Below are positions 49,203-62,077 of a stretch of DNA of 64,000 nt, piece after piece. This stretch comes from Streptomyces sp. BHT-5-2. GTDB lineage: Bacteria > Actinomycetota > Actinomycetes > Streptomycetales > Streptomycetaceae. Under the pieces are notes generated by a model that searched no databases, was not told the origin of the DNA, and saw nothing but the letters and a program-made list of their open reading frames with translations. How positions within the stretch are numbered: position 1 is the stretch's first letter; each line of letters starts with the position of its first letter. Location: NCBI RefSeq assembly GCF_019774615.1, contig NZ_CP081496.1, forward strand, positions 186,001 through 250,000. The letters run 5' to 3'. The translations under genes were made by a program, and so were the position numbers.

Positions 49203-52200
49203 GTGCGAATCCGGGGCGTATGGGGCGGAAGAGCCGGTACGGGCAGGAGCGGCGGCCGGGCGCGGGTGGCGGGCACCACCGCACTGGCCGCGGCCGTCAT
49301 AGGAGGACTGCTCGGCGGCGTACCGGCCGCCCAGGCGGCCCCGGCGGACCCGGCGGCCGGCACCCCCGACCAGCCGGGCCGGCCGACCGACGCGGGCGTC
49401 CCGCCCGCGGTCTGGCCGCGCCCCCAGTCGGTGCGGCAGCTCGGCGCGGCGGTGCCGCTCGGCCCGGCGGCGGTGCTGGTGGCCGCGCCGGACACCGACC
49501 CGTACACCCTCGACGTGCTGCGCGGGCTGCTGCGGGAGGCCGGGGTGCGCACCGTGCGGCAGGCCGCGCCCGGCGACCGGCTGCCCGCGGACGGGCCGGT
49601 GCTGCTGGCCGGCGGGGCGCCCGCGGACGACGCCCTGCGGGCGCTGCGGGTACCGGCCCGCGGCGATCTGCCGTCCGGCGGCTACCGCCTGGCGGTGGGC
49701 CAGGTCGCCGGCCGGGACACCGTCGCGCTGGACGGCGTCGGCCCGGACGGCCTCTTCCACGCCGCGCAGACCCTGCGGCAGCTGGTCACCGAAGGCCAGG
49801 GCGGGGAGCCGCAGTTGGCCTCCGTGGTCGTCCGGGACTGGCCGGCCACCGGTGTGCGCGGCACCACCGAGGGCTTCTACGGGCAGCCGTGGAGCCGGGC
49901 GCAGCGGCTGGCCCAGCTGGACTTCATGGGCCGCACCAAGCAGAACCAGTACCTCTACGCCCCGGGCGACGACCCGTACCGGCAGGCGCGGTGGCGCGAC
50001 CCGTACCCGGCCGAGCAGCGGGCGGACTTCCGGGCCCTGGCCGAGCGGGCCCGTGCCAACCACGTCACCCTCGGCTGGGCGGTGGCGCCCGGCCAGGCGA
50101 TGTGCCTGTCCTCCGAGGACGACCTGCGGGCGCTGCGCCGCAAGGTGGACGCGATGTGGGCGCTGGGGGTGCGCTCCTTCCAGCTGCAGTTCCAGGACGT
50201 CAGCTACAGCGAGTGGCACTGCGCGGCCGACGCCGAGACCTTCGGGACCGGGCCGCAGGCCGCCGCCAAGGCGCAGGCCGGCGTCGCCAACGCGCTGGCC
50301 CGGCACCTCGCCGAGCGGCACCCCGGCGCCGCACCGCTGTCCCTGATGCCGACCGAGTACTACCAGGACGGGGCCACCGCCTACCGCGGCGCGCTGGCCG
50401 CGGCCCTCAACGACCGGGTCGAGGTGGCCTGGACCGGCGTCGGCGTGGTGCCGCGGACCATCACCGGCGGTGAACTGGCCGCCGCCCGCGCGGCGTTCGG
50501 CCACCCGCTGGTCACCATGGACAACTACCCCGTCAACGACTACGCCCAGGACCGGATCTTCCTCGGCCCCTACACCGGCCGCGAACCGGCCGTCGCCACC
50601 GGCTCGGCGGCGCTGCTCGCCAACGCCATGGAGCAGCCGCTGGCGTCCCGGATCCCGCTGTTCACCGCCGCCGACTACGCCTGGAACCCGCGCGACTACC
50701 GCCCCGCGCAGTCCTGGGCGGCTGCCGTCGACGACCTCGCCGGCGCCGACCCCGGGGCCCGTACGGCGCTGCGCACGCTGGCCGGGAACACCGCGTCGTC
50801 ACTGCTCGACGGCGAGGAGTCGGGATACCTCCGGCCGCTGATCGACCGCTTCTGGAAGACCCGCGCGGCGGCCGTCAACAGCGGCCGGCCCGGGGACGAC
50901 CCGGACTTCGCCGAGGCCGCACGGTCGCTGCGGGCCGCGTTCCGCACCATGAGCGCCGCGCCCCGGGGCCTGGCCTCCGACCTGCGGGCCGAAATCGGGC
51001 CGTGGGCCGAGCAGTTGGCCCGCTTCGGCGACGCCGGGGCGCAGGCCGTGGACACCCTGCTGGCACAGTCCCGGGACGACGGCGACGCGGCCTGGGCGGC
51101 GCAGCGCACGGTGCTGCGGCTGCGGACGCAGCTGGACGGCAGCCCGGCGACGGTCGGCAAGGGCGTGCTGGCGCCGTTCCTGGACCGCGCGATGACCGAG
51201 GCGGACGCCTGGACGGGCGCGCACGGCAACGTCCCGGCACCGGACCGGGGCGACGGCCGCACGGCGCTGACCGTGCCCTTCCCGCGCGTCAGGCCGCTGG
51301 CCGCGGTCGGCGCGCTCACCGATCCGGGCCCGGCGGCCGGCGCGGTCTCCCTGGAGGCGCATGTGCCGGGCTCCGGCTGGCAGCGCCTGGGCCCGCTGTC
51401 GGCGACCGGCTGGACGGAGGCCCGCACGGCCGGGCTGCGGGCCGACGCGGTGCGGCTGACCTGGGCCGGCAACACCCCGGCACCGTCCGTGCACGCGCTC
51501 ACGCCGTGGTTCGACGACACCCCGCAGGCCGGCCTGGAGCTGTCCCGGACCGAGACCGACGCCCAGACCGGCGGCCGGGCGGCGGTGGAGGCCCTGATCT
51601 CCTCCCGCCGCCCCGGCGAGGTGCACGGCCCGCTGGCGGTCACCGCCCCCAAGGGCTTCACCGTCCACGCGCCGAAGGAGGTGACCGCCCCGCGGGGCGG
51701 CACCGCGCTCGTCCCGGTGACCGTGGACATCCCCAAGGACACCCCCTCCGGGACGTACCAGGTCTCGGTCGCCTTCGCCGGCCGGCAGCAGAAGCTGACC
51801 CTGCGGGTCTTCCCGCCCACCGGCGGCCCCGATCTGGCGCGCGGCGCGGACACCTCCTCGTCCGGCGACGAGAACGACGACTTCCCGGCGTCCGCGGCCA
51901 CCGACGGCGACCCGAGGACCCGCTGGTCTTCCCCCGCCGAGGACGCCGCCTGGCTACAGTTCGCGCTGCCCCGCCCGACCCGGCTGGGCCTGGTGGTCCT
52001 GCACTGGCAGGACGCCTACGCGGCCGCCTACCGCGTCCAGGTCTCGTCCGACGGGCACACCTGGCGGACCGCCGCCACGGTCGCCGACGGCAAGGGCGGC
52101 CGGGAGGCGGTGCGGATGGACGCCGAGGACGCCCGCTACGTCCGGATCCAGGGCGACAAGCGGGCGACACGGTTCGGCTACTCGCTGTGGAGCGTGGAGG

Positions 52201-52223
52201 CGTACGCGGTGGCGGCAGGGTGA
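49203..52223 (+). CDS. Secreted GH84-like beta-N-acetylglucosaminidase/hyaluronidase with C-terminal F5/8 domain
   Basis: A 1006-residue exported protein. Signal peptide with hydrophobic core and AQA-A cleavage near residue 46. Then a GH20b/GH84 N-terminal domain (PPAVWPRPQSV; DGLFHAAQTLRQL), the catalytic barrel beginning VRGTTEGFYGQPWS, a helical region, an NEW3-like stretch and an F5/8 type C (CBM32) domain (WLQFALPRPTRLG). GH84 enzymes use an Asp-Asp pair; here the equivalent position reads FQDVSYSEW with Gln331-Asp332. Substrate could be GlcNAc-bearing glycans; activity needs testing. Confidence 0.85.
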   Translation: MRIRGVWGGRAGTGRSGGRARVAGTTALAAAVIGGLLGGVPAAQAAPADPAAGTPDQPGRPTDAGVPPAVWPRPQSVRQLGAAVPLGPAAVLVAAPDTDPYTLDVLRGLLREAGVRTVRQAAPGDRLPADGPVLLAGGAPADDALRALRVPARGDLPSGGYRLAVGQVAGRDTVALDGVGPDGLFHAAQTLRQLVTEGQGGEPQLASVVVRDWPATGVRGTTEGFYGQPWSRAQRLAQLDFMGRTKQNQYLYAPGDDPYRQARWRDPYPAEQRADFRALAERARANHVTLGWAVAPGQAMCLSSEDDLRALRRKVDAMWALGVRSFQLQFQDVSYSEWHCAADAETFGTGPQAAAKAQAGVANALARHLAERHPGAAPLSLMPTEYYQDGATAYRGALAAALNDRVEVAWTGVGVVPRTITGGELAAARAAFGHPLVTMDNYPVNDYAQDRIFLGPYTGREPAVATGSAALLANAMEQPLASRIPLFTAADYAWNPRDYRPAQSWAAAVDDLAGADPGARTALRTLAGNTASSLLDGEESGYLRPLIDRFWKTRAAAVNSGRPGDDPDFAEAARSLRAAFRTMSAAPRGLASDLRAEIGPWAEQLARFGDAGAQAVDTLLAQSRDDGDAAWAAQRTVLRLRTQLDGSPATVGKGVLAPFLDRAMTEADAWTGAHGNVPAPDRGDGRTALTVPFPRVRPLAAVGALTDPGPAAGAVSLEAHVPGSGWQRLGPLSATGWTEARTAGLRADAVRLTWAGNTPAPSVHALTPWFDDTPQAGLELSRTETDAQTGGRAAVEALISSRRPGEVHGPLAVTAPKGFTVHAPKEVTAPRGGTALVPVTVDIPKDTPSGTYQVSVAFAGRQQKLTLRVFPPTGGPDLARGADTSSSGDENDDFPASAATDGDPRTRWSSPAEDAAWLQFALPRPTRLGLVVLHWQDAYAAAYRVQVSSDGHTWRTAATVADGKGGREAVRMDAEDARYVRIQGDKRATRFGYSLWSVEAYAVAAG

Positions 52224-54350: not shown

Positions 54351-54689
54351 ATGAAGATCCGCAATCGCGTGGCCACGGGGGCCGTCGCTTCGGTTCTGAT
54401 GCTCGGCAGCGCGGGGGCCCTGACCGCCGCGGCCCCCGCGTCCGCCACGGCGCGGCCGCAGATCAAGAACGACCTCACCTGCACCACGAACTCCGACGGA
54501 CGCCGCGGCACCGCGGACTGCACCAACAACACCAACCGCACCATCGGCTTCCGGGTGACCGTGGTCTGCGGCTGGTGGCCCGACCAGACCGGCCCCTGGC
54601 GGACCCTCAACCCGGGCGCCCGGGACCACTCCGAGGCCACCTGCGACGGCGGCACCGGCGTCGGCAGCGTGGGCTGGGAAGAGGGCTGA
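54351..54689 (+). CDS. Small secreted protein with four cysteines, unknown
   Basis: ATG start with GAGAAGGAG upstream, 112 residues. The signal peptide has a basic start (MKIRNR), hydrophobic core and ASA-T cleavage near residue 34. The mature part of about 78 residues has four cysteines (LTCTT, ADCTN, VVCGW, ATCDG), probably two disulfides in a small beta-rich domain. I do not recognise the family; size and cysteine spacing are compatible with a secreted inhibitor or binding protein, but this is not shown. Confidence 0.78.
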   Translation: MKIRNRVATGAVASVLMLGSAGALTAAAPASATARPQIKNDLTCTTNSDGRRGTADCTNNTNRTIGFRVTVVCGWWPDQTGPWRTLNPGARDHSEATCDGGTGVGSVGWEEG

Positions 54690-55118
54690 GACCGGGCGAC
54701 GTACCCAACGGGCGGCCGGCGGGGCGGTGAGCCGACGGGGACGCCGGCCGGCCCGTGACCACGGGGGAACACAGAGACGGGGGATCAAGAAACACGGGGG
54801 ACACGGGGGACACGGGGGAACACCGAGGGGCGCGCCGGCCGACCGCCGGGCGCCCCTCTCTCCGCGCCGGGGCCGACCCCACCCGACCCCACCGGCCGCG
54901 TCCGCCCCGCCCCGCCCCGCCCCGGGCGTATGAAACCTCCGTCCGGGCCATTGACGCGCACCCGACGGCCGCCCTACTTTCCTTCCAGTAATTGGAAGGT
55001 TTCCTAACAGACACCTTCCGGTCGACGTCCGATCGACGTCCGATCGGTTCCCGGTCGTCGATTCCCGGTCGTCGGCTCCCGATCGGCATCCGCACGGAAC
55101 ACGGGGTGGGCAGTAACC
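54690..55118. other. csnR leader region with short repeats
   Basis: No gene seen in 429 bp. It carries 3 x 9-bp ACACGGGGG (54792-54818), 2 x 11-bp TCGACGTCCGA (55022-55043) and 2 copies of TTCCCGGTCGTCG (55048-55060, 55062-55074). The AT-rich operator region is at 54975-55010. Confidence 0.7.
54981..55008 (+). promoter_or_regulatory. Candidate ROK-repressor operator of the csn operon
   Basis: Two overlapping symmetric elements: CCTTCCA-GTAAT-TGGAAGG (54981-54999) and GGAAGGTTTCCTAAC (54994-55008). The GGAA/TTTCC half-sites resemble operators of streptomycete ROK repressors such as CsnR. It lies 110 bp before the csnR start in the only AT-rich stretch. Confidence 0.6.
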
Positions 55119-56306
55119 ATGGCCGCAGCAGGACAGGGAACGCCGGGCACGCCGAGGGTGCTGCGGGCGATGAACGACCGGGCCGCACTGGACCTGTTGG
55201 TCTCCCAGGGCCCCCTGACCCGCACCCAGATCGGCGAACTGACGGGGCTGTCCAAGCCGACCGCCTCCCAGCTGCTCGCCCGGCTCACCGCGGCCGGGCT
55301 GGTCCGGACCACCGGCAACGTCACCGGCCGGCCCGGGCCCAACGCCCAGCTGTACGAGGTGAATCCGGCCGCCGCACACGTCGCCGCGCTGGCCGTGGAC
55401 CAGCTGGGCATCACCGCGGCCGTCGCGGACCTCACCGGCCGGGTGCTCGGCGAGGAGCGGATCGGCACCGGGCCGGGCCCCGAGGGCGCCACCGCACAGA
55501 CCGCCCGGCTGGTCGCACGGGCCGTCGACGGGGCGCTGGCCGAGGCCGGGCTGACGCGCGAACAGCTGCACCGCGCGGTGATCGGCACCCCCGGCGCCCT
55601 GGACCCGCAGACCGGCCTGCTGCGGTACGCGCCCCACCTGCCGGGCTGGCAGTCGCGGACGCTGAAGGAGGAGCTGGCCGAGGCCCTCGGCGTCCCGGTC
55701 GTCATCGAGAACGACGTGAACCTGGCCGCGGTGGCCGAGCAGCACGACGGCGCCGCCCAGGACTTCGACGACTTCGTGCTGGTGTGGGTCGACGAGGGCG
55801 TGGGCGCCGCGATCGTGCTGGACGGGCGGCTGCTGCGCGGGGCCACCGGCGGCGCCGGCGAGATCGGCTACATGCCGCTGCCCGGCGCCCGGCTGGCCCG
55901 GGACGGCGACCGCAGCGCCGCCCGGCCGGACGCCGGCGGCGGCTTCCAGCAACTGGTCGGCACGCCCAGCGTGCTCGCCCTCGCCCGGGCCTCCGGCGCC
56001 CCCGAGGTCCGCACCGTCGCCGAGGCACTGGCCCGGGACGACGTACGGGCCGAGGTGGCGCGCCGGCTGGCGACCGGCCTGGCCGCGGTGGTCGCGGTGG
56101 TCGACCCCCGCCTGGTGGTGCTCTCCGGCGAGGTGCCGCAGGCCGGCGGGGAGGCGCTGCGGGCCCTGGTCGAGGCGGAGTTCACCGGGCTCGCGCTGCC
56201 CCGCCCGGAGATCCGGATCAGCGACATCGCGGGCGACCCCATCCTCACCGGCGCGCTGCGCACGGCACTGGCGGAGACCCGCGACGCGGTCTTCGACACC
56301 GGCTGA
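55119..56306 (+). CDS. csnR: ROK-family transcriptional repressor, CsnR type
   Basis: A 395-residue protein. Residues about 25-75 form a winged helix (LTRTQIGELTGLSKPTASQLL), followed by the ROK sugar-binding domain (VIENDVNLAAVAEQ, DEGVGAAIVLDGRLLRGATGGAGEIGY). The usual zinc-binding CxCGxxGCxE cluster after EIGY is absent; the segment reads LPGARLARDGDRSAARPD instead. It heads a six-gene unit matching the S. coelicolor csnR-K operon for chitosan oligosaccharide use, where CsnR represses until a glucosamine oligomer signal arrives. Separated from csnE by 102 bp with a hairpin. Confidence 0.85.
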   Translation: MAAAGQGTPGTPRVLRAMNDRAALDLLVSQGPLTRTQIGELTGLSKPTASQLLARLTAAGLVRTTGNVTGRPGPNAQLYEVNPAAAHVAALAVDQLGITAAVADLTGRVLGEERIGTGPGPEGATAQTARLVARAVDGALAEAGLTREQLHRAVIGTPGALDPQTGLLRYAPHLPGWQSRTLKEELAEALGVPVVIENDVNLAAVAEQHDGAAQDFDDFVLVWVDEGVGAAIVLDGRLLRGATGGAGEIGYMPLPGARLARDGDRSAARPDAGGGFQQLVGTPSVLALARASGAPEVRTVAEALARDDVRAEVARRLATGLAAVVAVVDPRLVVLSGEVPQAGGEALRALVEAEFTGLALPRPEIRISDIAGDPILTGALRTALAETRDAVFDTG

Positions 56307-56316
56307 GCCCCCGGCC

Positions 56317-56348
56317 CCGGGCCCGTCCTGTACGTCGAACGGGCCCGG
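56317..56348 (+). terminator. Hairpin between csnR and csnE
   Basis: Inverted repeat CCGGGCCCGT / ACGGGCCCGG, 12-nt loop, 10 bp past the csnR stop. May attenuate read-through or stabilise transcript ends, separating repressor from transporter expression. Confidence 0.6.
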
Positions 56349-56408
56349 CGACCGTCACGGCCGGAGCCCGTCCGGGCGCCCGGGACCCCCCGACGTAAGG
56401 AAGTCCGC

Positions 56409-57830
56409 ATGCCGCTCGTGCCGTTCATGCCGCTCCCCCGCCCGGGTGCCCGACCACGACCGCACGGCCGCCCGCGCCCCCGCGCCCGCCGCCGTGGCCG
56501 GACCGGGCGGCCGGCGGCGCTGCCCGTGGTGCTGGCCGCCGGGCTGCTCGCCGCCGGCTGCGCCCACCCCAGTGTCGGCAGCGACCGCGACGACCCCACC
56601 CGGCCGGTCACCCTCACCTTCTGGCACGGCTGGTCCGACGCCGGCGAGGTCAAGGCCATCGACGACAGCATCGCGCGGTTCGAGAAACGCCACCCCAACA
56701 TCACCGTGAAGGCGGTCGGGAACGTCTCCGACGCCACCATGAACCAGGCGCTGCGGGCCGGCGGCGACGACGCACCCGACGTGGTGTCGTCGTTCACCAC
56801 CAACAACGTCGGGCAGTACTGCTCCTCCGGAATGTGGGCGGACCTCGACCCCTTTCTGCACAAGAGCGGCGTGGTGAAGGAGGAGGTCTTTCCCGGGCCC
56901 CTGCTCTCCTATACGCAGTACCGCGGCCGGCAGTGCGCGCTGCCGCTGCTCGCCGACACCTACGGGCTGTACTACAACAAGGACGCCTTCCGGAAAGCCG
57001 GCATCACCCGGCCGCCGCGCACCATGTCGGAGCTGGAACGGGACGCCGGGAAACTCACCCGGCGCACCGGGAACGGCGGCTACCGACAGGTCGGCTTCAT
57101 GCCGGACTTCCGGCTGTACCAGAACAGCCCGGACCGGCTCTTCGCACAGTGGGGCCCGCGGTATTTCGACCGGAACGGAAAAGCGCGGCTCGCCGAGGAA
57201 CCCTCGACCCGGGAATTCTTCACCACCCAGCGCGAACTCCTCGTCGCCCAGGGCGGATACGGCCCGCTGGAGAAGTTCCGCACCACGTTCGGCGAGGAGA
57301 TGTCGGCACAGAACGCCTTTCTGCGACAGAAGGTGGCCATGCACATGGACGGTGAATGGCGCGGCCTGATGCTCAGGAAGGCGAAGGCGCCGTTCGACTG
57401 GGGCGTGGCGCCGATGCCGGTGCCCGACGACCGTGCCGACACCTACGGCCGGGGCTGTCTCACCGGCACCGTCGCCGGCATCGCGCACAGCAGCCGGCAT
57501 CAGAACGCGGCCTGGGAACTGGTGAAGTTCCTGACCGTCGACACCGACCAGGTGGTCGCCTTCGCCAACGCCATCCACAACGTCCCGTCCACCAACGCCG
57601 CCCTGGTCTCCCCCGAGTTGGACGCCGACGCGGAGTTCCGCACCTTCCTCGACATCGTCCGCAATCCGCACAGCACCGCACTGCCCCCGTCCGACAACGG
57701 CGACATGTACGTCACCTCGCTCCAGGACTTCTCCTACGCCGTGGAAGCCGGAAAGGTCCCCGATCTCGACGCCGGACTGCGCGCCCTCGACGCCCGGATC
57801 GACGCCGACAACCTCCAGTCCGAGAACTGA
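56409..57830 (+). CDS. csnE: ABC sugar-binding lipoprotein, CsnE type
   Basis: Captures oligosaccharide outside the membrane for the importer. ATG start with TAAGGAAG upstream, 473 residues. A long Arg/Pro-rich n-region precedes the lipobox LAAG-C51. Mature protein starts with the family pattern VTLTFWHGWSDAGEV. Within the csn cluster the ligand is predicted to be glucosamine oligomers from chitosan. Runs of GGAAAG/GAATT-type codons around 57170-57230 are slightly less GC-biased than neighbours. Confidence 0.88.
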   Translation: MPLVPFMPLPRPGARPRPHGRPRPRARRRGRTGRPAALPVVLAAGLLAAGCAHPSVGSDRDDPTRPVTLTFWHGWSDAGEVKAIDDSIARFEKRHPNITVKAVGNVSDATMNQALRAGGDDAPDVVSSFTTNNVGQYCSSGMWADLDPFLHKSGVVKEEVFPGPLLSYTQYRGRQCALPLLADTYGLYYNKDAFRKAGITRPPRTMSELERDAGKLTRRTGNGGYRQVGFMPDFRLYQNSPDRLFAQWGPRYFDRNGKARLAEEPSTREFFTTQRELLVAQGGYGPLEKFRTTFGEEMSAQNAFLRQKVAMHMDGEWRGLMLRKAKAPFDWGVAPMPVPDDRADTYGRGCLTGTVAGIAHSSRHQNAAWELVKFLTVDTDQVVAFANAIHNVPSTNAALVSPELDADAEFRTFLDIVRNPHSTALPPSDNGDMYVTSLQDFSYAVEAGKVPDLDAGLRALDARIDADNLQSEN

Positions 57831-57840
57831 CGGAGCACCC

Positions 57841-58797
57841 ATGGCAGTCACCGCCTCCCCCGCGCCGGCGCTGCGGCGCAAACACCTCCGCGAACGCCTG
57901 CGCATCCTGGGATTCCTCTCCCCCTGGCTCGTCGGATTCTCGGTCTTCTTCGGCTACCCGCTGATCGCCACCGGCTACTTCTCCATCATGCACTACAACC
58001 AGATCGAGCAGCCCGCGTTCGTGGGCCTGCGGAACTGGAAATACGTGCTGACCCAGATGCCGCTGTTCGGGCCGGCGCTGTGGAACACGCTCTGGCTGGT
58101 CGTGGTGATGGTGGCGCTGCGAGTCGTCTTCGGACTGGGCATCGGACTGCTCGTCACCAAGGTGAAATCGGGCGCCGGATTCTTCCGCACCGCGTTCTAT
58201 CTGCCTTATCTGGCGCCGCCGGTGGCCGCCACCGTCGCCTTCGTCTTCCTGCTCAACCCGGCCACCGGGCCGGTCAACGAGATCCTCGGCGCGGTCGGCA
58301 TCCCGGGCCCGGAGTGGTTCAACGACCCGGCCTGGGCCAAGCCGTCGCTGGTCCTGCTGTCCCTGTGGGGCATCGGCGACCTGATGGTGATCTTCATGGC
58401 GGCGCTGCTGGACGTCCCGAAGGAGCAGTACGAGGCCGCCGCACTGGACGGCGCCGGCGCCTGGGCGAGGTTCCGCTATGTGACCTGGCCGACGATCACC
58501 CCGATCGTGCTGTTCGCGGTGGTCACCGGTGTCGTACAGACCATGCAGTACTACACCCAGGCGCTGGTCGCCGGGAAACTCGCCTCCGGCGTCTCCCTCG
58601 GCCCCGGCACCGTCATCCAGCCCGGCTACCCGGACCACTCCACCCTGACCGTGCCGCAGCTCGTCTACTCGCTGGGCTTCCAGAACTTCAACACCGGCGC
58701 CGCCTGCGCCCTTTCGCTGGTGCTGTTCGCCCTCGCGATGGCCGTCACCACCCTGCTGATGCGCAAGGGCGCCGGCCTGCTCCCGGCGGAGGACTGA
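57841..58797 (+). CDS. csnF: ABC sugar permease, MalF-like, CsnF type
   Basis: First inner-membrane permease of the importer. The 318-residue protein has six helices and the EAA loop YEAAALDGAGAWARFRYVTW, which contacts the ATPase. It begins 10 bp after csnE and ends 6 bp before csnG, so it is clearly co-transcribed. Confidence 0.9.
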   Translation: MAVTASPAPALRRKHLRERLRILGFLSPWLVGFSVFFGYPLIATGYFSIMHYNQIEQPAFVGLRNWKYVLTQMPLFGPALWNTLWLVVVMVALRVVFGLGIGLLVTKVKSGAGFFRTAFYLPYLAPPVAATVAFVFLLNPATGPVNEILGAVGIPGPEWFNDPAWAKPSLVLLSLWGIGDLMVIFMAALLDVPKEQYEAAALDGAGAWARFRYVTWPTITPIVLFAVVTGVVQTMQYYTQALVAGKLASGVSLGPGTVIQPGYPDHSTLTVPQLVYSLGFQNFNTGAACALSLVLFALAMAVTTLLMRKGAGLLPAED

Positions 58798-58803
58798 TCC
58801 GAC

Positions 58804-59706
58804 ATGACCACCACCACGCTCCCCCGCCGCCCGGCCGCCCGCGCCCCCCGCGCCACCGGCACCCAGGCCGCCGGCGCCCGCCGCAGACGGCTGCTGCACT
58901 GGATCGCCGTGCACGCGGTGGCCGTCGCCGCCGCCCTCTTCTTCCTCCTCCCGTTCGTCTTCGTCCTGCTGACCTCCGTCATGAACGACGACCAGGCGAT
59001 GAGCGGCGAACTCTGGCCGCACGAGTGGAACTGGTCCAACTACGCCAGCGTGTTCACCACCCCCGGCTTCCTCGACTGGTGGAAGAACTCGCTGCTCTAC
59101 GCGGGCCTGGGCACCCTCTTCACGGTCTGCTCGGCGGTCCCGGTCGCCTATGCGCTGGCCCGCTTCCGCTTCCGCGGCCGTCGCACCGCGATGCTGCTCG
59201 TCATCTCCACGATGATGCTGCCGCCCCAGGTCGTCGTCATCCCGATGTACCTGGTGTGGGCGCAGCAGCTGCACCTGACCGGCTCGGTCTGGCCGCTGGT
59301 CGTCCCGATGGCGTTCGGCGACGCCTACTCGATCTTCCTGCTCCGCCAGTTCCTGCTGACGATCCCTCAGGAATATGTGGAGTCCGCGAAGGTCGACGGC
59401 TGCGGCGAACTCCGCACCCTGCTGCGGATCATCTTCCCCATGGCCCGCCCCGGCATCGCCGCCATCGCCCTCTTCCAGTTCTTCTACTGCTGGAACGACT
59501 ACTTCGGGCCGCAGATCTACACCGCCCAGAACCCGGCCGCCTGGACGCTCTCCTACGGCCTGGAGTCCTTCAAGAGCGCGCACAACGTCAACTGGAACCT
59601 CACCATGGCCGCGACGGTACTGGTCATGGCCCCCGTCATCGTCGTCTTCTTCTTCGCGCAGAAAGCCTTCGTCGAAGGCGTCACACTCACCGGAGTGAAG
59701 GGCTGA
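58804..59706 (+). CDS. csnG: ABC sugar permease, MalG-like, CsnG type
   Basis: Second permease, 300 residues, six helices, EAA loop YVESAKVDGCGELRTLLRII. No ATP-binding gene follows, so the importer probably uses the shared multi-sugar ATPase MsiK encoded elsewhere, as other streptomycete CUT1 systems do. csnH starts 8 bp downstream. Confidence 0.9.
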   Translation: MTTTTLPRRPAARAPRATGTQAAGARRRRLLHWIAVHAVAVAAALFFLLPFVFVLLTSVMNDDQAMSGELWPHEWNWSNYASVFTTPGFLDWWKNSLLYAGLGTLFTVCSAVPVAYALARFRFRGRRTAMLLVISTMMLPPQVVVIPMYLVWAQQLHLTGSVWPLVVPMAFGDAYSIFLLRQFLLTIPQEYVESAKVDGCGELRTLLRIIFPMARPGIAAIALFQFFYCWNDYFGPQIYTAQNPAAWTLSYGLESFKSAHNVNWNLTMAATVLVMAPVIVVFFFAQKAFVEGVTLTGVKG

Positions 59707-59714
59707 AACCGCTC

Positions 59715-61094
59715 ATGCTGCCAACGTCCGGGGGCCGCCCCCCGCACTCCCCCGTCAAGATCGCCGTGGTCGGCGGCGGCTCGACCTACACCCCCGAACT
59801 CATCGACGGCTTCGCGCGGTTGCGGGACGTGCTGCCGGTCGGCGAACTCGTCCTGATCGACCCGGCCACCGAGCGGCTGGAGCTGATCGGCGCACTGGCC
59901 CGCCGGATCTTCGCCCGGCAGGGCCACCCGGGCACCGTCACCTGGACCGACGACCTGGACGCCGGACTCGACGGCGCCGACGCCGTCCTGCTCCAGCTGC
60001 GGGTCGGCGGGCAGGCGGCCCGCGACCAGGACGAGACCTGGCCGCTGGAGTGCGGCTGCGTCGGCCAGGAGACCACCGGCGCGGGCGGCCTCGCCAAGGC
60101 ACTGCGCACCGTCCCGGTCGTCCTGGACATCGCCGAACGGGTCCGCCGCCGCTGCCCGGACGCCTGGATCGTGGACTTCACCAACCCGGTGGGCATCGTC
60201 ACCCGGGCCCTGCTCACCCACGGGCACAAGGCCGTCGGACTGTGCAACGTGGCCATCGGCTTCCAGCGGAAGTTCGCCGGGCTGCTCGGCGTGGCCCCCG
60301 AACGCGTCGAGCTGGAGCACGTCGGCCTGAACCACCTCACCTGGGAGCGGGCCGTCCGCGTCGACGGCGAGGACGTCCTGCCCCGGCTCCTCGCGGAACA
60401 CGGCGACGCGGTCGCCGCCGACATCCGCATGCCCCGCGCGCTCCTCGACCACCTGGGCGTCGTCCCCTCCTACTACCTGCGCTACTACTACCGGCACGAC
60501 GCGGTGGTGGCGGAGCTGCGCACCAAGCCCTCCCGCGCCGCCGAGGTCGCCGCCCTCGAACGCGAACTCCTCGGCCTCTACGCCGACCCGGCCCTGGCCG
60601 AGAAACCCGCCCTCCTCTCCCGCCGCGGCGGCGCCTTCTACTCCGAGGCAGCGGTAGCCCTGACGTCGTCCTTGCTGGCGGGCGGGGGCGGGGCGGATTC
60701 CGACGCGGGGGGTGGCCTACGGGCCGGGGACGGGGCGGGTGGTGAAGGGTGGGGTGCCGAGGGGAAGTTGGTCGGTGATGTGCAGGTCGTCAACACCCTC
60801 AACAACGGGACGTTGCCGTTCCTGCCGGACGATGCGGTGATCGAGGTGCCGGCCGCGGTCGGCTCCCGGGGGGCCTCCCCCCTCCCCCTCCGCCCCCTAG
60901 CCCCCCTTTTTGCCGGGCTCGTCGCCAATGTCACGGCCTACGAGCACCTGGCTCTGGACGCGGCCCTCAAAGGCGGCCGCGACCGGGTCTTCACCGCACT
61001 CCTCGCACACCCCCTCATCGGCCAGATCGACCACGCGGACCGGCTCGCCGACGCGCTGATCGCACACAACCGGGAGCACCTCACGTGGGCCTGA
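59715..61094 (+). CDS. csnH: GH4 family hydrolase, CsnH type
   Basis: NAD- and metal-dependent hydrolase of family GH4 (6-phospho-beta-glucosidase group), 459 residues. NAD-binding GGGSTYTPEL is at 20-29; FTNPVGIVTRAL, the metal-ligand Cys in GLCNVAIG and the His in HVGLNHLTW are present. It should cleave the imported glucosamine oligomers or their phosphates. It carries a Gly-rich insert of about 30 residues (GGGGADSDAGGGL onward, 60678-60765) absent from the family, with GGG/GGT/TTG codons unlike the rest. The stop overlaps csnK by 10 nt. Confidence 0.88.
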   Translation: MLPTSGGRPPHSPVKIAVVGGGSTYTPELIDGFARLRDVLPVGELVLIDPATERLELIGALARRIFARQGHPGTVTWTDDLDAGLDGADAVLLQLRVGGQAARDQDETWPLECGCVGQETTGAGGLAKALRTVPVVLDIAERVRRRCPDAWIVDFTNPVGIVTRALLTHGHKAVGLCNVAIGFQRKFAGLLGVAPERVELEHVGLNHLTWERAVRVDGEDVLPRLLAEHGDAVAADIRMPRALLDHLGVVPSYYLRYYYRHDAVVAELRTKPSRAAEVAALERELLGLYADPALAEKPALLSRRGGAFYSEAAVALTSSLLAGGGGADSDAGGGLRAGDGAGGEGWGAEGKLVGDVQVVNTLNNGTLPFLPDDAVIEVPAAVGSRGASPLPLRPLAPLFAGLVANVTAYEHLALDAALKGGRDRVFTALLAHPLIGQIDHADRLADALIAHNREHLTWA

Positions 61095-62077
61095 CCGGCA
61101 CTGCGCTCGCCGTCGACGCGGGCAACAGCAAGACCGACGTGGTGCTGGTCGCCACCGACGGCAGGGTCCTCGGCCGGGCCCGCGGCGGCGGCTTCCAGCC
61201 GCATCTGGTCGGCACCGCCCGCGCCGTGGACGTGCTGGCCCCCCTGATCGCCGAGGCCCGGCGCCGGGCCGGACTGCCCGCCGACGGCCCGGCCGCCCAG
61301 CTCTCCGCCTTCCTCGCCAACGCCGACCTCCCCGTCGAAGTGACCCGCCTGACCACCGAGATCGTCGCCCGCGGCTGGGCGGACGCCGTCACCGTACGCA
61401 ACGACACCTTCGCCCTGCTCCGCGCCGGACTCCCGGACGGCGCCGAGCAGTTGGGCGTCGCCGTGGTCTGCGGCGCCGGCGTCAACTGCGTCGGCGTCGG
61501 CCGCGGCGGGGCCACCGCCCGCTTCCCGGCCGTCGGCCGGATCTCCGGCGACTGGGGCGGCGGCTCCTTCCTCGCCGACGAGGCCCTGTGGCACGCCGCC
61601 CGCGCCGAGGACGGCCGCGGCACACCGAGCGAACTCGCCCGCGCGCTACCGGCCCACTTCGGCCTGACGACGATGGCAGAACTGATCGAGGCCCTGCACC
61701 TGCGGCGGATCCCGCTCGACCGCCGGCACGAACTGTCCCCCCTGCTCTTCGCCGTCGCGGCGGACGGCGACGCCGTCGCCCGCTCCCTCGTGGCCCGCCA
61801 GGCGGAGGAGATCGCCCTGATGGCCTCCGTCGCCCTCCAGCGCCTCGACCTCCTCTCCGAACCGACCCCGGTCATCCTCGGCGGCGGCATCCTCGCCGCC
61901 CGGCACCCCCTTCTCCACGACCACGTCACCGAACTCCTCGCCGCCCGGGCGCCGAAGGCCGTCCCGCACCTCCTCACCGCGCCCCCGGTCCTCGGCGCCG
62001 CCCTGGACGCACTGGACCGGGCGACCCCCGGACCGCCCCGACGGGCCTACACCCGCCTGCGGGCGGAATGGGCATAG
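61085..62077 (+). CDS. csnK: BadF/BadG-type sugar kinase, CsnK (glucosamine kinase)
   Basis: ASKHA-fold kinase, 330 residues, GTG start overlapping csnH. Phosphate loop DAGNSKTDVVL at 10-20, VVCGAGVNCVGV and RISGDWGGGSFLADEAL motifs, and a C-terminal VILGGGILAARHPLL. This family includes actinobacterial glucosamine kinases, and the csn setting predicts glucosamine as substrate, feeding glucosamine 6-phosphate to central metabolism. The last codons and stop (GGAATGGGCATAGAG) are duplicated 20 bp downstream. Confidence 0.87.
   Translation: MGLTGTALAVDAGNSKTDVVLVATDGRVLGRARGGGFQPHLVGTARAVDVLAPLIAEARRRAGLPADGPAAQLSAFLANADLPVEVTRLTTEIVARGWADAVTVRNDTFALLRAGLPDGAEQLGVAVVCGAGVNCVGVGRGGATARFPAVGRISGDWGGGSFLADEALWHAARAEDGRGTPSELARALPAHFGLTTMAELIEALHLRRIPLDRRHELSPLLFAVAADGDAVARSLVARQAEEIALMASVALQRLDLLSEPTPVILGGGILAARHPLLHDHVTELLAARAPKAVPHLLTAPPVLGAALDALDRATPGPPRRAYTRLRAEWA

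Follow-up and report, generated by a model that had tools for sequence, protein, structure and literature searches.

In human OGA, a beta-N-acetylglucosaminidase (GlcNAcase) of glycoside hydrolase family 84 (GH84), D174 polarises the acetamido group of the substrate, D175 is the acid/base and K98 forms a salt bridge with D174; the sugar is contacted by D174, N280, K98, G67, N313 and D285 (PMC10636738). Proteins of this family are annotated by family as beta-N-acetylglucosaminidases, as is the case for most of the plasmid relatives that we found listed with a gene. A 2018 review describes GH84 GlcNAcases as undocumented for actinobacteria in CAZy (PMC6097792), and the GH84 tree of a 2023 study was made from characterised enzymes and gut homologs (PMC10245121). 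Among the titles and abstract openings listed by our searches of open-licence PubMed Central papers, none reports a characterised Streptomyces GH84 or a group of GH84 proteins that lacks the Asp pair. Here we describe a gene found in 64,000 nucleotides of Streptomyces sp. BHT-5-2 (the window; contig NZ_CP081496.1, positions 186,001 to 250,000), whose product, the window protein, carries Gln-Asp where GH84 enzymes have their catalytic Asp-Asp. Judged from alignments and a predicted model, this protein and its Streptomyces relatives keep an intact GH84 fold, have had their acetamido-handling residues replaced clade-wide, and possess a catalytic pair that no longer evolves as an invariant pair.

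Active-site residues of the window protein

The first-pass annotation had placed Gln331-Asp332, within the motif FQDVSYSEW, at the position of the catalytic Asp-Asp. This assignment was confirmed, as the two residues align with Asp297-Asp298 of NagJ, and in all five printed phmmer alignments, which cover three solved proteins (NagJ, 2v5d; BT_4395, 5mi4, 2jiw and 2j4g; CpGH84B, 6pv5), Q331-D332 stands opposite the DD of the enzyme. A true Asp pair elsewhere in the barrel was ruled out, since positions 331-332 are the ones used in every alignment and D256-D257 (GDDPY), the one further Asp pair seen within the aligned core, belongs to a separate motif common to the clade and to canonical GH84. 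The gene, its domains and the residues that matter most are the following (window positions):

49203-52223, plus strand: whole GH84-fold gene, GTG start, 1006 residues, probably secreted
49203-49337, plus strand: probable signal peptide, residues 1-45, ending in PAAQA before APADP, identified by eye from the sequence
49404-49841, plus strand: GH20b-type N-terminal domain, residues 68-213 (PF02838, 3.5e-20)
49857-50783, plus strand: GH84 barrel, residues 219-527 (Pfam NAGidase PF07555, E 1.2e-105)
49965-49967, plus strand: Gly255, replacing the canonical Lys (NagJ K218, human OGA K98)
50193-50195, plus strand: Gln331 (cag), replacing the acetamido-polarising Asp (NagJ D297, human OGA D174)
50196-50198, plus strand: Asp332 (gac), at the general acid/base position (NagJ D298, human OGA D175)
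50211-50213, plus strand: Glu337, a clade-specific acid just past the dyad (Glu in 143 of 143 clade rows)
50517-50519, plus strand: Met439, replacing the acetamido-pocket Trp (NagJ W394; W278-equivalent)
50538-50540, plus strand: Asp446, retained (NagJ D401, human OGA D285; in 136 of 136 clade barrels)
50829-51182, plus strand: NagJ_C post-catalytic helical domain, residues 543-660 (PF21774, 6e-12)
51852-52190, plus strand: C-terminal CBM32 / F5_8 type C domain, residues 884-996 (PF00754, 1.6e-20)

In NagJ numbering, the alignment put Gly255 at K218, Met439 at W394, a Ser opposite W490 and Pro435 at N390; the last is no feature of the clade, as Pro occurs there also in many canonical Streptomyces GH84s. 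G187, D298, Y335, N396, D401 and N429 were retained. Of what defines a canonical GH84 GlcNAcase, the window protein therefore lacks the Asp-Asp pair (Gln331-Asp332) and the Lys at the position of K98 (Gly255), and it has the acid/base Asp332 together with Asp446 and Asn474 (Asn429 of NagJ), which we take to be the O4/O6 contacts. Because K98 pairs with D174 in human OGA (PMC10636738), the exchanges of Lys for Gly and of Asp for Gln would remove both partners of the salt bridge. As the residues replaced and kept map onto the sugar contacts of the human enzyme, they indicate a grip that is half lost: the acetamido and K98 side is gone, and the acid and O4/O6 side is retained.

The membership of the protein in the family is clear. 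The translation of the open reading frame (ORF) 49203-52223 contains SFQLQFQDVSYSEW, and its barrel scored 353.5 bits against PF07555 (cut-off 25), covering positions 1-294 of the 295 in the profile; against the NCBIfam GlcNAcase equivalog NF041654 it reached 266.3 bits, below the curated cut-off of 1000. A structure prediction with AlphaFold2 (residues 60-700, input alignment of 57 rows) gave a mean predicted local distance difference test score (pLDDT) of 92.8, and the best solved neighbours of the model were NagJ/CpOGA 7khv (Z 46.8, root-mean-square deviation 2.5, 562 residues) and BtGH84 2wzi (Z 44.5). The pLDDT and the superposition on 7khv support a GH84 fold spanning the N-terminal domain, the barrel and the helical domain. 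No family closer by fold than GH84 appeared among the 50 matches listed by Foldseek and the 50 listed by VIA-align, all of which had GH84/O-GlcNAcase or unspecific hydrolase titles. The region 51212-51830, a stretch of about 200 residues that separates the helical domain from the CBM32, had no Pfam match at E values of 1 or lower.

Residue states, tree and selection in the Streptomyces clade

A search for relatives found 343. Among the best 80, which were kept, all were titled Streptomyces except one '[Kitasatospora] papulosa', and residues 331-332 were QD in 77 and ED, QN and GD in one each. The QD of these 77 relatives, and the clade as a whole, ruled out a sequencing slip or a private point mutation. 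The QD motif, searched for as a degenerate DNA pattern, matched in 117 of 295 Streptomyces genomes; some PF07555 match was present in 206 of the 295, and in 53 of 394 genomes of the class.

For a wider census, barrels were gathered by homology searches, from 40 hand-picked places and from 39 places (30 genomes and 9 further places) in genomes that have a GH84 without the exact QD motif. The hand-picked and targeted sets over-sample non-QD states, and most of the 117 genomes with the exact motif lie outside the barrel sample. Once seven duplicates had been collapsed and two short pieces dropped (L167 and one of L223), 219 distinct barrels were left, 136 of the clade and 83 others. Both dropped loci are from Streptomyces and carry canonical-type motifs: L167 (genome G427) is a GH84 fragment and L223 (G089) a GH84 split over two frames, possibly relics or assembly breaks. 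The clade was defined in this census by R260, E337 and T/L438, and the counts for these residues were taken from a 143-row set in which duplicates were kept; all residue counts come from automatic MAFFT alignments.

The dyad of the 136 clade barrels was QD in 113, ED in 12, QN in 4, DD in 3, PD in 2, and GD and DA in one each, so that Gln331 was present in 117 and Asp332 in 131, while all 83 other actinobacterial barrels were DD. The latter include a second GH84 from the genome of the window, L001 (G000:C2:1971471-1972397; PF07555 7.7e-115), with the canonical Lys, Asp-Asp and Trp. Position 255 was Gly in 135 clade barrels and Thr in one; among the others it was Lys in 76, Ala in 6 and a gap in one, and six barrels without this Lys were still DD. 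Position 439 was M in 123, L in 10, V in 2 and Q in one of the clade, and W in 78 of the 83 others. Y386 (position of human OGA Y219) was F in 48 and N474 (human OGA N313) was altered in 8 of the 136, both being invariant in the other 83, and Asp446 was present in every clade barrel. The eight plasmid-borne relatives, from two Alphaproteobacteria, two Bacteroidota, one Deinococcota and three Actinomycetota, all had Lys, DD and Trp. By origin of the rows, the 97 ranked by the search tools, with no choice by motif, were QD in 92, ED in 3, and QN and GD in one each; the 36 clade rows from targeted places were QD in 21, ED in 8, QN, PD and DD in 2 each, and DA in one. Residues R260, W292, E337, S468, A475 and W670 were specific to the clade and fixed in 143 of 143 rows, and Q327 and T438 in 142 of 143. 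A second, non-Streptomyces GH84 group (L151, L155, L156, L158, L159 and L166) has Ala at the K98-equivalent, an intact Asp pair and an altered barrel start (ESFYGP).

The clade formed a single group in a tree that excluded the state columns (Shimodaira-Hasegawa-like approximate likelihood ratio test 100), and its stem measured 1.14 changes per column, or 0.79 under a different model and choice of columns. Lineages whose position 331 is E or D branch near the base of the clade and most Q lineages are nested, which suggests that Lys was lost first and that position 331 then passed through D, E and Q. This order stays a suggestion, since the basal forks are open and Glu331 also arises within the Q group (L020, L194, L195 and L201). 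Three members with Gly255 are still Asp-Asp (L180, L197 and L210) and are candidate intermediates.

Thirty-two positions were invariant in 74 Lys-type GH84s (mean pairwise identity 0.46), and half of them vary among 107 clade rows of mean identity 0.71, namely 224, 225, 226, 229, 254, 255, 261, 295, 297, 302, 331, 332, 386, 411, 456 and 474, where 255 represents a fixed switch to Gly; the remaining 16, plus 440, 441 and 446, showed no variation in the same rows. The fewest changes needed on the 97 tool-ranked rows were 3 at position 331, 1 at 332, 9 at 386, 6 at 439 and 3 at 474 (median column 3), with none at 440, 441 and 446. When targeted rows were included (143 rows), the figures rose to 11, 4, 11, 12 and 4, respectively, with one change at 441 and none at 440 and 446 (median 6). 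In 80 canonical GH84 rows, columns 331, 332, 386 and 474 did not change at all (median column 11). These counts indicate that the dyad columns of the clade change about as often as the average column, whereas in canonical GH84 they never do; Asp446 is unchanged in both.

The ratio of nonsynonymous to synonymous substitution rates (dN/dS) of the barrel, for pairs 88-98.5% identical, had a median of 0.214 in the clade (116 pairs, 0.089-0.352) and of 0.207 in canonical GH84 (18 pairs), indicating that the gene is under purifying selection. Single pairs gave 0.307 (both Asn332), 0.190 (both Pro331), 0.197 and 0.116 (both Glu331) and 0.315 (both Gly-DD). Comparisons of Asn332 with Asp332 members gave 0.214 (L038-L057), 0.252 (L200-L057) and 0.402 (L175-L140), and that of Ala332 with Asp332 gave 0.418 (L202-L209). 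These values suggest that selection continues, perhaps relaxed in some lineages.

Proposed glycan binding and the alternatives

The first-pass annotation had raised three possibilities for the Gln-Asp pair: a different mechanism, a different substrate or a lectin-like role. The evidence supports a change of function, because Gln is typical of the clade, the equivalents of K98 and of the acetamido-pocket Trp are lost, and the strict conservation of the dyad is gone. Among the three, it leans toward binding, since a few lineages have lost the general acid Asp332 (it is missing from 5 of the 136 distinct barrels, through at least four events on the 143-row tree). Nothing in the evidence gathered pointed to hyaluronan.

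Our tentative preference is that the window protein descends from a GH84 beta-N-acetylglucosaminidase, is probably secreted and binds glycan, and that it has abandoned canonical substrate-assisted hydrolysis or is no longer selected for it. Judging by the aligned rows, Asp440, Asn441 and Asp446 (DNYPVND), together with R260, W292, Q327, E337, T438, S468 and A475, are fixed or nearly so. Such a barrel would still hold the end of a sugar by the O4/O6 side, but would not recognise and activate the 2-acetamido group as GH84 GlcNAcases do; the CBM32 at the C-terminus would help to tether the protein to an extracellular amino-sugar polymer. An OGA with Asn at the equivalent of Asp332 was described as incapable of hydrolysis while keeping its binding to O-GlcNAc proteins (PMC7324509). 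We prefer binding because five clade barrels have lost this Asp and the pair of genes that shares such a loss nevertheless keeps a dN/dS of 0.307, with Lys, Trp and the first Asp also missing. A more ambitious version, possible but doubtful as a whole, is that in a large, vertically inherited Streptomyces clade the GH84 barrel became a natural pseudoenzyme, serving as an extracellular receptor for amino sugars, by stepwise loss of Lys, passage from Asp to Glu to Gln and then loss of the general acid in several lineages, with the O4/O6 grip locked; its ligand may be a non-acetylated glucosamine end, as in chitosan or a de-acetylated matrix polysaccharide.

Several observations weigh against a binding role. 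Since Asp332 is retained in 131 and Gln, Glu or Asp at position 331 in 133 of the 136 clade barrels, selection may still maintain catalysis in most of the members. Asp332 changed once across the 97 rows not chosen by motif, the change counts being minimum numbers obtained by parsimony on quickly built trees, many of whose forks are open; moreover, three of the five non-Asp332 barrels came from places chosen for genomes without the exact QD motif, and L175 came from a hand-picked listing. Some of the genes without Asp332 may be relaxing, because their dN/dS values lie partly above the clade range (L175-L140 and L202-L209; the comparisons of L038 and L200 with L057 are within it). A new active site could explain the newly invariant residues, Glu337 in particular, just as well. 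Finally, an amide can act as polariser: in the GH85 enzyme Endo-A, the N171A variant is described as having no detectable hydrolysis (PMC2646837).

This last point leads to a rather unlikely alternative, in which the protein is still a beta-N-acetylglucosaminidase: the amide of Gln331 would take over from the carboxylate in orienting the acetamido group, like the Asn of GH85, and Asp332 would serve as the acid/base. The conservation of Asp332 agrees with it, as do the functioning of Endo-A with Asn171 and Glu173 (PMC2646837), the existence of structure 2wzh, titled 'BtGH84 D242N in complex with MeUMB-derived oxazoline', and the presence of Glu or Asp at position 331 in 16 of 136 barrels. The amide itself occurs in 117 of the 136, with E, D, P and G also found there. 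However, the clade has lost the equivalents of K98 and W278 too; Pro331 (2), Gly331 (1), Asn332 (4) and Ala332 (1) all exist; and Y386 is so often F, when columns 331, 332 and 386 never change in canonical GH84.

An unlikely alternative is a hydrolase of a different sugar, for example non-acetylated glucosamine at chitosan ends, acting through Asp332 and a new carboxylate such as Glu337. The loss of the acetamido contacts with conservation of the O4/O6 contacts, and the presence of R260, W292 and E337 in all 143 rows, would suit it, and so would the genes located downstream of the GH84-like gene in the window:

from 55119: ROK gene
from 56409: solute-binding protein (SBP) gene
from 57841 and 58804: permease genes
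from 59715: GH4 gene
from 61085: BadF-type kinase gene

The make-up of this region (54993-62074) is that of a csnREFGHK-type operon, a type described as CsnR-controlled and serving the uptake of chitosan oligomers (PMC6097792). A CsnR-box-like palindrome (54993-55005) precedes the ROK gene and is the only match in the window. By contrast, none of 69 regions upstream of the GH84-like gene and its relatives has a CsnR box with up to two mismatches, and the csn SBP (E <= 1e-100) is carried by 8 of 10 genomes that have the QD motif, as against 18 of 20 that lack it; one of the latter (G007) has a canonical GH84. Membership in the CsnR regulon was thus rejected, as there is no box and the gene does not co-occur with the csn SBP. 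Sites of the DasR type, allowing up to three mismatches, lay upstream in 4 of the 69, scattered, but 63 of 68 loci had such a match somewhere, and they were taken as noise.

The adjacency to csn is a single inherited event. The order of the gene, HNH and MscS was the same in 68 of 68 relatives with full flanks, with malQ in front in 67; of six divergent members, all had HNH and MscS, three malQ and four csnR. The locus of L193 ends just past MscS and is uninformative on csn, and L192 had no csn match within its 19.5 kb. In the gap between MscS and ROK, a small ORF (54353-54688, 112 residues) has a signal-peptide-like start, as seen by eye, and no Pfam match; a 155-residue frame from 54263 that overlaps it was found in 3 of 80 relatives.

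The C-terminal CBM32, present in 105 of 106 clade rows versus 13 of 81 others (a figure that may be low, as many loci end about 1500 bases past the barrel), is closest to modules of Paenibacillus glucanase/chitosanase (five distinct sequences, 6.6e-22 to 1e-18; next match 6.7e-05). Of the residues of module DD2 that we take to contact glucosamine (GlcN), E14 and R31 correspond to E890 and R907 (1.00 of clade rows each), E61 is replaced by Gln936 and Y36 has no counterpart. As E and R are also common at these positions in F5/8C domains, the two matches are no proof of chitosan binding. The Paenibacillus modules are described as binding specifically to chitosan in one paper (PMC5651945), and as binding chitin, chitosan and cellulose in another (PMC12154041). 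The loss of Asp332 in five barrels also speaks against a hydrolase that would depend on it. Overall, the link to chitosan is weak: it consists of an adjacency that was inherited, the CBM32 and the loss of the acetamido contacts.

A barrel decaying without a selected function, where CBM32 alone may matter, is very improbable: the dyad columns do vary and two Asp332-loss comparisons reach a barrel dN/dS of 0.40-0.42, but the median dN/dS of the clade equals that of canonical GH84, several clade-specific barrel residues occur in 143 of 143 rows, no internal stops were present among the matches listed (for one genome search, the best matches only), and both broken GH84 genes seen (L167 and L223) carry canonical-type motifs and hence provide no evidence for decay here.

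Comparison with described systems

At least 117 of 295 Streptomyces genomes contain a member of this clade, for which the beta-N-acetylglucosaminidase label may be wrong or incomplete. With NagJ/CpOGA of Clostridium perfringens and BT_4395 of Bacteroides thetaiotaomicron, the window protein shares the fold, the general acid Asp and the O4/O6 contacts; it differs from them, at about 27-30% aligned identity, in three replacements, of the first catalytic Asp by Gln, of K218 by Gly and of W394 by Met. The paralog L001 belongs to the same family, but it retains the canonical Lys, Asp-Asp and Trp within the same genome. As for the C-terminal domain, its nearest solved relatives are CBM32 modules DD1 and DD2 of the Paenibacillus IK-5 chitosanase/glucanase, from which it departs in two of the four presumed glucosamine-contacting residues.

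Endo-A of GH85, with N171 and E173, resembles the window protein in carrying an amide at the position that orients the acetamido group. It belongs to a separate family, however, its amide is Asn rather than Gln, and this residue is described as essential there (PMC2646837), whereas it is variable in the Streptomyces clade. The hydrolysis-dead Asp-to-Asn mutants of GH84 enzymes, at the position of human OGA D175, bind sugar without cutting it, and Asn occurs naturally at this position in four clade barrels. Those mutants were made in enzymes that keep their acetamido-binding residues; the clade, with living variants that combine Gly with DD, ED, QD and QN, represents a natural experiment in dismantling substrate-assisted catalysis.

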